From: Methanobacteriota archaeon
Lineage (GTDB): Archaea > Thermoplasmatota > Thermoplasmata > RBG-16-68-12
Reading direction: 5' to 3'
Length of the DNA: 32,796 nucleotides
Assembly: GCA_005878525.1 (NCBI GenBank)
Contig: VBMB01000139.1
Coordinates: 1-32,796 of the forward strand
Shown piece after piece: positions 17,718 through 26,000 of this stretch. Each line of letters opens with the position of its first letter. Positions within the stretch are counted from its first letter, which is position 1. The translations under genes were made by a program, and so were the position numbers. Below the pieces are notes generated by a model. It was not told the DNA's origin. It searched no databases and saw nothing but the letters and a program-made list of their open reading frames with translations.

Positions 17718-17857
17718 GTCGTCGGCCCAAGCCCTCCTCAAAGGAAGGCAGGCTTCGCGCAGGCTCGCGCACTGCACTACCGCAGGGAACGTGGGCGGGC
17801 TTAACTTCCGGGTTCGGGATGGGACCGGGTGTATCCCCGCCGCTTTGGCCGTCAAAC
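17718..17857 (-). rRNA. 5S ribosomal RNA (with apparent extra hairpin near the 3' side)
   Basis: Reverse strand: GACGGCCAAAGCGGCGGGGAUACACCCGGUCCCAUCCCGAACCCGGAAGUUAAGCCCGCCCACGUUCCC...GUGCAGUGCGCGAGCCUGCGCGAAG...GGGCCGACGACC; the CCCAUCCCGAACCCGGAAGUUAAGC core is diagnostic; terminal helix GACGGCC/GGCCGAC; boundaries approximate. Confidence 0.9.
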
Positions 17858-22440: not shown

Positions 22441-22531
22441 TCGTTGTGCTCCCGGCGAGTTATATCATGAGAAGCGGATAATTATTGTCCCTCCGATTCG
22501 ATTCGTCGGAGGCGGGTTCCATTCACCGCAA

Positions 22532-22540
22532 ACTTTATTA
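22532..22540 (+). promoter_or_regulatory. putative TATA box (actttatta) upstream of tRNA-Lys
   Basis: A/T-rich element about 50 nt upstream of the tRNA 5' end in GC-rich DNA. Confidence 0.4.
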
Positions 22541-22588
22541 CAAAGGCTCGTTTTGGCAAACGGTCGCATGTCGCCGCCGCTAGCCGGA

Positions 22589-22755
22589 GGGCCCGTAGCT
22601 CAGCTAGGTAGGATGGCGCACAAACACCGTCCCTAGAAAGAGCATCCGGCTTTTAGCCGCTTTCCTTCACCGGAGAGCGGAAAGAAACCGGGTGGTCCGG
22701 GGTTCGAACGGGCCCTGCGGAGCGCGCGGGGTCCCCGAAAGTCCCCGCGGGCCCG
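22589..22755 (+). tRNA. tRNA-Lys(UUU), pre-tRNA with three predicted BHB introns: 22610-22638, 22656-22686, 22709-22741
   Basis: Removing the three inserts gives GGGCCCG UA GCUC AGCUAGGUA GAGC A UCCGG CUUUUAA CCGGG UGGUC CGGGG UUCGAAU CCCCG CGGGCCC G (74 nt, all stems paired). Each junction shows a 3-nt bulge / 4-bp helix / 3-nt bulge. Confidence 0.92.
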
Positions 22756-22815
22756 TACGGCTCGCGCGCGCGTGGCATGCCAGGTGGAAAACGGTCGCCC
22801 AGGGAGGACCTCCCC

Positions 22816-23067
22816 TTGAGGTTTAACGTGTTGGAGCATCAGCTAGTTCCAGAGCATCGCCTCGTGCCGGAGGAAGAGGCGGAGCGGGTTTTGAAGGCGA
22901 TGAAGATCACGCGAGACCAGCTCCCGAAGATTCGGAAGAGCGATCCCGTGATCCAGGTCCTCGAGAAGATCGAGGGGCCCATCGAGGAAGGCCGGATCAT
23001 CCGCGTGACGCGGGTGAGCGGGACCGCGGGCGTGTCGGAGGCCTATCGCCTCGTCATCGGGAGGTAG
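22816..23067 (+). CDS. rpoH: DNA-directed RNA polymerase subunit H
   Basis: LRFNVLEHQLVPEHRLVPEEEAERVLKAMKITRDQLPKIRKSDPVIQ...GTAGVSEAYRLVIGR; TTG start at 22816 fits family length better than the ORF's upstream ATG at 22777. Confidence 0.93.
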   Translation: MRFNVLEHQLVPEHRLVPEEEAERVLKAMKITRDQLPKIRKSDPVIQVLEKIEGPIEEGRIIRVTRVSGTAGVSEAYRLVIGR

Positions 23068-23070
23068 AGC

Positions 23071-26000
23071 ATGCGCGAACTCATCGATGCGTTCTTCCGA
23101 GAACGCTCCATCGTCAACCATCACATTGCCTCGTTCAACGACTTCCTTCCCACGATCGACAATCCGAACTCGCGGATGCAGCGGATCGTGGACAACCTTC
23201 GGTCGTCGCCCGAAGACGAACGCCGCGGCATCATCAAGCTCGACGAGGACCGGACCGAAGGCGACGTAATCGAAATCCGGATCGGCCGGAAGCGGGACGA
23301 TCGCGGGCGGATTGACCTCGAGGCGAAACCGACGATCACGCTGGGCCTGCCCATCGTCAAGGAGGCCAACGGCGCCACCCACCCGCTCAATCCGATGGAA
23401 GCGCGGCTGCGGAACCTGAACTACACCGCGCCGATCTACCTCGACTTCACGGTCATCGAGAACGGCATCGAACGGGAGCCGGAGCGGGTGCACATCGGCA
23501 ACTTCCCGATCATGGTCAAGTCGAAGCGGTGCCTCCTGTACAAGGAGAACATGGAGACGGAAGGGGAGCTCACCTCCGACGAGTACAAGCACAAGCTCAT
23601 CGAGATGGGCGAGGACCCGTACGACCCGGGCGGGTACTTCATCATCGGCGGGACGGAGCGGGCCCTGATCTCGCTCGAAGACCTCGCCCCGAACCGCGTC
23701 CTCGTCGAATTCAACGAACGTTACGGCCGGAAGGTCGAGGTCGCCAAGGTATTCTCGCAGAAAGAAGGGTACCGCGCCCTCACCTTGATGGAGAAGAAGA
23801 AGGACGGGCAGCTGATCGTCAGCGTCCCGACGGCCTCCGGGCAGATCCCGCTGATCATCCTCATGAAGGCCTTGGGCATGGAGAAGGACGAGGACATCTA
23901 CAACGCCGTCGTCTCGACGCCCGAGATGGCCAATATCGTCTACGCGAACATCGAGGAGTGCCAGAACAAGAAGATCTACCCTCCGAACGGGATCTTCACG
24001 CGAGACGACGCGATTAGTTACCTCGAGAAGAAGTTCGCGACGGGCCAGGCGAAAGAATACCGGATCAAGAAGGTCGAGTCGATCCTGGACCGGTCGCTCC
24101 TCCCGCACCTCGGCGACACCCGCGAGGACCGGATCAAGAAGGCGATCTTCCTCGGACGCGTCGCCCGGACGGTCCTCGAGTTGTCCCTTGGCATGCGCCG
24201 GGAGGACGACAAAGACCACTACGCGAACAAGCGGCTCAAGCTCGCGGGCGACCTCATGGAGGATCTGTTCCGGGTCGCCTTCGCGAACCTCGTGAAGGAC
24301 CTGAAATATCAGCTGGAGCGATCGTACGCCCGGCGCCGCGAGCTGAAAATCTCCTCGGCGATTCGGCCGGACCTGCTCACGCAACGCCTGCTCCATGCGC
24401 TCGCGACGGGCAACTGGGTCGGCGGCCGGGCCGGCGTCAGTCAGCTCCTCGACCGCACGTCCAACATGAGCGCCCTGAGCCACTTGCGGCGCGTGACGTC
24501 TCCGTTGACGCGGTCCCAGCCCCACTTCGAAGCGCGCGATCTCCATCCGACCCAGTGGGGCCGCCTGTGTCCGAACGAGACGCCGGAAGGCCAGAATTGC
24601 GGTTTGGTCAAGAACTGCGCCCTCGTGATCGACGTGTCCGAAGGGTTCCCGGAGGAAGAGGTCAAGCTCCTCCTCGCCGACCTCGGGACCAAGCAGGTCA
24701 AAGGTCAGCAGACCCAGCTCACCCGCGTCTACGTGAACGGAGACCTCGTCGGGCTCCACGAGGACCCGAGGAACCTCGTGGCCGAGATCCGCGAGCGTCG
24801 CCGCTCCGGGCTCCTGAGCCACGAGGTCAACGTCCGGTACGACGAGAACATGGGTGAGATCATCATCAACTGCGACGAGGGCCGCATCCGACGTCCGCTG
24901 CTCGTCGTCAAGGACGGCCACATCGTCTTCTCTCGTAAGCACGTCGACGAGCTGAAGATGGGCCGCCTCCGGTTCTCCGACCTCGTCCGGAACGGGATCG
25001 TCGAGTGGATCGACGCGGAAGAGGAGGAAGACACGTTCATCGCGATCTACCCGTACGACGTCCCGAGCCGCTGCAAGGAGTGCAAGCATCCGCTGAGCCG
25101 GAACGACGTCACGTGGGCGAACATGGGGAGCCGCGACGAGGAAGTGGAACTCCAGTGCGCGCACTGTCACAAGACGTTCAAGGTGAAAGCCTCGATCACG
25201 AAAGAGCACTCCCACATCGAGGTCGACCCGATGGTCATCCTGGGTGTCGCCTCGGGCGTGGTACCATATCCCGAGCACAATTCGTCTCCACGGGTCACGA
25301 TGGGGGCGGGGATGGCGAAGCAGTCCCTGGGCCTGGGGTCGAGCAACTACCGCCTCCGGCCGGATACGCGAAGCCACCTGCTCCACTACCCAGAGCAACC
25401 GCTGGTGCAGACGGACTCGATGAAGTACGTCTCGTTCAACGAGCGACCCGCGGGCCAGAATTTCGTCGTCGCGGTGATGTCCCACCACGGGTACAACATG
25501 GAAGACGCGATCGTCATGAACAAAGCCTCGATCGACCGAGGTCTCGGCCGGTCGTCGTTCATGCGGACGTACCGCGCGGAGGAGCGCCGCTACCCCGGCG
25601 GGCAGGAAGACCACTTCGAGATCCCGTCCCCGGACGTGCGCGGTGCGCGTGCCGACCTGTCGTACGCCAACCTGACGCCGGATGATGGGCTCATCTCGCC
25701 GGAGGTCCTCGTGACGGGCGGGGACGTCCTCATCGGGAAGACGAGCCCGCCGCGGTTCCTCGAGGAGGAAACGGACTTCCTGACGCCGCAGAAGCGCCGC
25801 GAGACACCTGCGGGTCCCGGAGCTCGGCGACAAGTTCGCGTCCCGTCACGGCCAGAAGGGCGTCATCGGCCTGATTGCACCGCAAGAGGACATGCCCTTC
25901 ACCGCGCAAGGCATCATCCCGGACCTGATCATCAACCCCCATGCGATTCCGTCGCGGATGACCGTGGCCCACGTCCTCGAGCAGATCGGCGGGAAGGTCG

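Follow-up and report, generated by a model that had tools for sequence, protein, structure and literature searches.

Can a tRNA gene interrupted three times, twice outside the anticodon loop, be functional in a euryarchaeal-type genome, and which enzyme would remove its introns? Euryarchaeota are described as having few tRNA introns, one per tRNA and at the canonical position (PMC4090602), and multi-intron tRNAs are reported from Crenarchaeota, N. equitans, M. kandleri, M. thermautotrophicus, Korarchaeum and ARMAN (PMC4033280). Loops in the splicing endonuclease EndA give breadth of specificity (PMC6379350, PMC12397907). The alpha4 and alpha2 types of EndA are associated with canonical motifs only (PMC4033280), and the euryarchaeal alpha4 and alpha'2 enzymes with strict motifs at 37/38 only, non-canonical introns needing CSL or ASL (PMC4033280, PMC12397907). 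A survey of 217 archaeal genomes lists 673 non-canonical introns; its main text names Thermoproteales and Thaumarchaeota, and Thermoplasma is absent from that main text (PMC8450103).

The window (the whole stretch of DNA analysed, 32,796 nucleotides) is contig C134 of a genome that is 81% complete in 165 contigs. Its RpoB is 99% identical to that of the soil MAG EA_6 and 89% to that of RBG_16_67_27, which places it in Thermoplasmatota; RBG_16_67_27 is a Lunaplasmatales archaeon (PMC9287336). Our reading, to which we give a probability of about 0.92, is that the locus is the sole detected tRNA-Lys(UUU) gene of its organism, that its three bulge-helix-bulge (BHB) introns are cut by EndA, and that those in the D-loop and T-loop are old.

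A tRNA-Lys(UUU) gene with three BHB introns

The gene occupies positions 22589-22755 (+) and has introns at 20/21, 37/38 and 59/60 (Table 1). Excision of the three introns leaves GGGCCCGTAGCTCAGCTAGGTAGAGCATCCGGCTTTTAACCGGGTGGTCCGGGGTTCGAATCCCCGCGGGCCCG, a canonical tRNA of 74 nt that ARAGORN calls tRNA-Lys(ttt); the coordinates and the product given in the first-pass annotation were exact. The unspliced gene receives no ARAGORN call at the locus and no Rfam tRNA match reaching the cut-off. Weak cmscan matches to miRNA and sRNA families, all under the gathering score, were discarded. A split or permuted tRNA is ruled out by the exons, which are in order and contiguous. So is a group I intron: the introns measure 29-33 nt, compared with more than 200 nt for a catalytic core, and Rfam gave no intron match.

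Table 1. Features of the tRNA-Lys(UUU) locus and its surroundings, in window positions.
Feature	Position	Strand	Remark
TATA-like element AAACTTTATTAC	22530..22541	+	~48 nt upstream of tRNA; sequence conserved in genus; putative promoter
Leader segment AGCCG	22582..22586	+	complementary to 22758-22762; compensated in relatives
Exon 1, tRNA positions 1-20	22589..22609	+	ARAGORN parse of spliced sequence
Intron 1, position 20/21 (D-loop), 29 nt	22610..22638	+	relaxed BHB; inner and central 4-bp helices intact, outer D-stem 2 nt off
Exon 2, tRNA positions 21-37	22639..22655	+	anticodon UUU at 22652-22654
Intron 2, canonical position 37/38, 31 nt	22656..22686	+	strict BHB
Exon 3, tRNA positions 38-59	22687..22708	+	
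Intron 3, position 59/60 (T-loop), 33 nt	22709..22741	+	strict BHB
Exon 4, tRNA positions 60-73	22742..22755	+	CCA not encoded
Trailer segment CGGCT	22758..22762	+	pairs with leader
rpoH	22777..23067	+	starts 21 nt after tRNA; conserved neighbour
rpoB (N-terminal part)	23071..25800	+	anchor for synteny and tree

All three introns have a 4-bp helix between two 3-nt bulges on opposite strands, with the cut falling after the second bulge nucleotide (hyphens below). In intron 1 the helix is CUAG/CUAG, the bulges GU-A and AA-A and the inner helix GGAUGG/CCGUCC; in intron 2 they are CUUU/AAAG, UA-G and AA-A, and CCGCU/AGCGG; in intron 3 UUCG/CGAA, AA-C and AG-U, and GGG/CCC. Introns 2 and 3 are strict (hBHBh', i.e. 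helices abutting both outer sides) because the anticodon stem and the T-stem, respectively, lie directly outside the bulge. The outer side of intron 1 is relaxed, with the D-stem two nucleotides away (A14, G15), and the outer helix is zero in intron 1 of all relatives. Every base pair that had been listed earlier for the three introns is present in the sequence. The precursor has a predicted folding energy of -94.6 kcal/mol (z = -5.4 relative to dinucleotide shuffles, none of which is equally stable), and its unconstrained fold reproduces most of the three-BHB structure. The locus is a real and almost certainly functional tRNA-Lys(UUU) gene, with one BHB intron each in the D-loop, the anticodon loop and the T-loop.

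Conservation of the splicing helices

To collect relatives, the locus was compared by BLAST with loci anchored on RpoB and RpoH, and a script then dissected them into exons and introns. In 88 relatives, with 78 distinct sequences among them, the tRNA-Lys gene lies upstream of rpoH-rpoB. Intron lengths range from ~19 to 119 nt; the exons are nearly fixed and rejoin to a 74-nt tRNA in all parses but one (L099, with an exon sum of 70 nt, probably a splitting error of the script). Across 17 aligned relatives the exons are almost invariant while the introns vary.

The central helix is complete (4/4) and in register in 62/68 relatives for intron 1, 28/34 for intron 2 and 63/65 for intron 3; the corresponding values for shuffled introns are 1.7%, 5.3% and 4.4%. 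Sliding the register brings the central helix near zero for introns 1 and 3. Chance is excluded, since syntenic relatives keep the in-register helix far above shuffled introns. The invariance of the exon side of this helix is not evidence in itself because tRNA function constrains the exon strands, and the acceptor, D- and T-stems and the central helices of introns 1 and 3, invariant in the 17-relative set, are uninformative by themselves. Compensatory changes are found in intron 1 in several lineages, from CUAG/CUAG to GUAG/CUAC, GUCG/CGAU and UUCG/CGGA. In the set of 17 close relatives, pairing extends to 97% of cells, versus 95.9% after shuffling (0/500 shuffles reach the score) and at most 57% for slid structures; five pairs, located in the inner helices of introns 2 and 3, show changes on both sides. 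For intron 3, just 35/65 relatives have an inner helix of at least three contiguous pairs in its expected register.

The inserts might be a misassembly artefact, as 98 bp of rpoB, present in a close relative, are missing near 25805 of this contig. But the same or homologous inserts occur at the same positions in dozens of independent assemblies, and the chromosome-level records CP070767, CP070732 and CP070748 carry them as well. We consider an artefact next to impossible.

History of the introns in Thermoplasmatota

The 78 distinct sequences were scored for presence (1) or absence (0) of the D-loop, anticodon-loop and T-loop introns, in this order: 30 are 111, 33 are 101, eight are 000, four are 110, two are 001 and one is 100. 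On a FastTree phylogeny of 70 RpoB sequences, which has no root and so cannot prove the direction of change, two changes are needed for intron 1, two for intron 2 and four for intron 3. The D-loop intron is present in 57/70 and the T-loop intron in 54/70 of the sampled Thermoplasmatota genomes. Intron-free loci fall together in a single clade made up of MAGs of Methanomethylophilaceae type and others related to them, and Methanomassiliicoccus-type loci have both D- and T-loop introns. The D- and T-loop introns are thus old in the sampled lineages, because the intron-free state is confined to one clade, and loss in that clade is the simplest reading. We propose that both have been conserved across a large part of Thermoplasmatota by vertical inheritance. 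The 37/38 intron, alone of the three in being clade-restricted, would be a later clade-specific addition or would have been lost elsewhere.

These counts modify the statement of the first-pass annotation that such a gene would be unusual for the lineage: in the sampled Thermoplasmatota, introns in the D- and T-loops are the rule at this locus. Set against euryarchaeal-type genomes at large, the statement agrees with reviews, which describe single introns at the canonical position (PMC4090602), and does not hold for M. kandleri and M. thermautotrophicus, whose multi-intron tRNAs were already known (PMC4033280).

The other tRNAs and the need for tRNA-Lys(UUU)

The organism's own genome gave 30 tRNA matches and G020, a 98%-complete congener, gave 41; neither set contains an intact tRNA-Lys(UUU). 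The only other lysine tRNA found in these genomes is Lys(CUU), itself intron-bearing. In ten genes of the window, AAA occurs 62 times and AAG 225 times; AAA codons being used, a UUU tRNA is needed. The locus is therefore the only gene for it that we detected by sequence search, with the qualification that the gap in an 81%-complete MAG could hide another.

A decayed copy, with the true tRNA-Lys(UUU) gene elsewhere, would agree with the silence of the standard tools and with the incompleteness of the genome. It fits poorly with exons that are near invariant among 17 aligned relatives while the introns vary and that rejoin in 88 loci, and with a 98%-complete relative that has no intact copy; we judge a pseudogene highly improbable. 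The two doubts raised beforehand, assembly error and decay, thus fail: the inserts recur in many assemblies, and the intact copy was not found.

A search for further non-canonical tRNA introns had been recommended at the outset, and the organism's own genome contains one, in tRNA-Pro(GGG) (L156, G000:C137:4500-5100): a D-loop intron at 20/21 with helix CUUG/CAAG and six inner pairs. The same intron is found in G005 and G020 (L255, G020:C27:1400-1950) and follows the same cut rule as in tRNA-Lys. In a tRNA with a CAU anticodon (L257, G020:C34:84700-85200) the T-loop is apparently split by a ~31-nt insert with a 6-bp inner helix and 3/4 pairs in the central helix. Non-canonical introns are not confined to tRNA-Lys, since tRNA-Pro(GGG) has one and the CAU tRNA apparently another. 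Whole-genome searches with DNA patterns for T-arm and D-loop introns returned mostly unrelated matches; they recovered tRNA-Lys and tRNA-Pro(GGG), and the census they give is incomplete.

The splicing endonuclease

EndA is encoded in the organism's own genome by one gene with two PF01974 domains, truncated by a contig end. In the family genomes with a match, both PF01974 domains lie in a single ORF, with an extra fragment in G010; the PF01974 search of G004 gave no match. Over the class, 120 of 121 genomes match, mostly with two domains in one ORF of ~350-400 aa. A one-domain form of 289-330 aa belongs mainly to one family, and nearly all genomes of the class have at most two PF01974 domains. 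Full-length relatives of the enzyme (~350 aa) contain two complete repeats, and the closest PDB match is M. kandleri 5x89. When aligned with 1a79, repeat 2 keeps the active-site Tyr, His and Lys, which we take to be the catalytic triad of EndA, and repeat 1 lacks the His. By sequence, the enzyme is of the alpha'2 type: two fused repeats, no second subunit gene, and catalytic residues in the C-terminal repeat only.

The loop of broad-specificity EndA, which lies between the ..YG motif and the next helix and carries a key Lys, was not found. An 11-residue gap stands opposite the CSL of A. pernix EndA (3p1z_B) in the alignment of repeat 2, and a 6-residue gap opposite the ASL Tyr-Lys of ARMAN-2 (4fz2) in that of repeat 1. 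By these alignments, neither known specificity loop (CSL, ASL) is in the EndA of the lineage. Inspection of the endA architecture, suggested together with the first-pass annotation, has therefore yielded one duplicated single-chain enzyme without CSL or ASL. That annotation had also taken the locus to imply a broad-specificity endonuclease, which it may not: only intron 1 would need relaxed recognition, introns 2 and 3 being strict, and the enzyme has neither loop known to give breadth.

A gene for the ligase RtcB is present in the genome. In the proposed pathway the precursor would fold into a cloverleaf with three BHB junctions, EndA (one gene, two fused repeats) would cut six sites, each after the second bulge nucleotide, and RtcB would presumably ligate the exons into a normal 74-nt tRNA, able to read AAA and possibly AAG codons. 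We infer transcription, cutting, ligation and charging from the sequence.

If a loop-less EndA were unable to cut a relaxed motif, the D-loop intron would have to be removed by something else, such as a second, unrecognised nuclease. Enzymes without CSL and ASL, like the EndA of this lineage, are indeed reported as narrow (PMC6379350, PMC12397907). However, intron 1 obeys the EndA rule in helix, bulge and cut position in 62/68 sequences, and the limit of two PF01974 domains in nearly all genomes of the class argues in the same direction. Moreover, the loop-less EndA of M. kandleri shows weak cleavage of a relaxed motif in a pre-tRNA, and that of A. fulgidus cleaves full-length pre-tRNA at a BHL motif in position 37/38 (PMC6379350). 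A different nuclease is in our view improbable, and we retain EndA as the probable enzyme for all three introns.

Leader, trailer and the polymerase operon

The leader and trailer segments that flank the tRNA vary in a compensatory manner in relatives (L139, L140, L141, L061, L067), as AGCCG/CGGCT, AGCCC/GGGCT, CCCCCG/CGGGGG and TCCCCG/CGGGGA. Over 73 loci the mean best leader-trailer helix is 4.86, versus 3.32 with swapped trailers; for 57 other tRNA calls, taken from two of these genomes, the excess is absent (2.70 versus 2.67). A leader-trailer BHB that would serve circularisation was rejected, since its internal loop, ~2 x 3 nt, lacks the 4-bp spacing.

Across 22530-22777 a TATA-like box is found upstream of the tRNA only. 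The linkage to rpoH-rpoB, kept across Thermoplasmatota, suggests that tRNA-Lys may be co-transcribed with the polymerase operon. One could go further and regard it as the obligatory first unit of a tRNA-Lys, rpoH, rpoB, rpoA1, rpoA2, nusA transcript, in which the leader-trailer helix and excision by a loop-less EndA would couple maturation of the tRNA to the freeing and expression of polymerase mRNA. We consider this extension rather unlikely.

Two observations concern the surroundings. Near ~25805 rpoB lacks 98 bp relative to L043 and its frame is broken, with identity to L043 of 87% before and 96% after this point; a chimeric contig join is possible there. A 5S rRNA gene lies at 17736-17856 (-), with no other rRNA adjoining it in the window.

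Relation to known systems

Thermoproteales offer the closest structural likeness: P. calidifontis tRNA-Glu(UUC) and P. islandicum tRNA-Pro(UGG) have three BHB introns at canonical and non-canonical positions and give a normal tRNA (PMC4390854). These are Crenarchaeota with an (alpha beta)2 EndA bearing CSL, whereas the enzyme here is a duplicated single chain without it. Non-canonical introns in that group are portrayed as late and translocatable; here, those of the D- and T-loops are stable across much of Thermoplasmatota. Methanopyrus kandleri (5x89; PMC6379350) is, like the present case, euryarchaeal, with a relaxed motif and an EndA without CSL or ASL, but it is a hyperthermophile of another lineage whose (alpha beta)2 enzyme has two separate subunits, not one fused chain, and a constrained specificity. 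Korarchaeum cryptofilum is the sole alpha2 archaeon reported with non-canonical introns (PMC4033280). Like the lineage studied here, for which this assembly is predicted from sequence, it has a homodimer-type EndA beside non-canonical introns; its enzyme has the specific loop, and the present lineage would be a further, loop-less case. The alpha'2 EndA of Thermoplasma acidophilum and Ferroplasma (2ohc; PMC6379350, PMC8707768), from the same phylum, is also a duplicated single chain with one catalytic site per chain. That of T. acidophilum differs in being 289 aa long and listed as narrow, while the enzyme here has ~350 aa and two complete repeats.

A three-intron tRNA is thus a structure of a known kind. 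As far as we have checked, what is new is the lineage, the age of the introns, and their pairing with an EndA not expected to cut the D-loop intron; we found no description of this pairing or of the depth of these introns in Thermoplasmatota in the searchable open-licence literature.

The finding has a practical side, in that annotation of Thermoplasmatota with tools that do not splice misses an essential tRNA. The conserved D- and T-loop introns run counter to the view of non-canonical introns as always recent and mobile. Finally, a relaxed D-loop intron long kept beside a loop-less EndA would mean either that the enzyme is less narrow on full-length pre-tRNA or that another determinant is involved.
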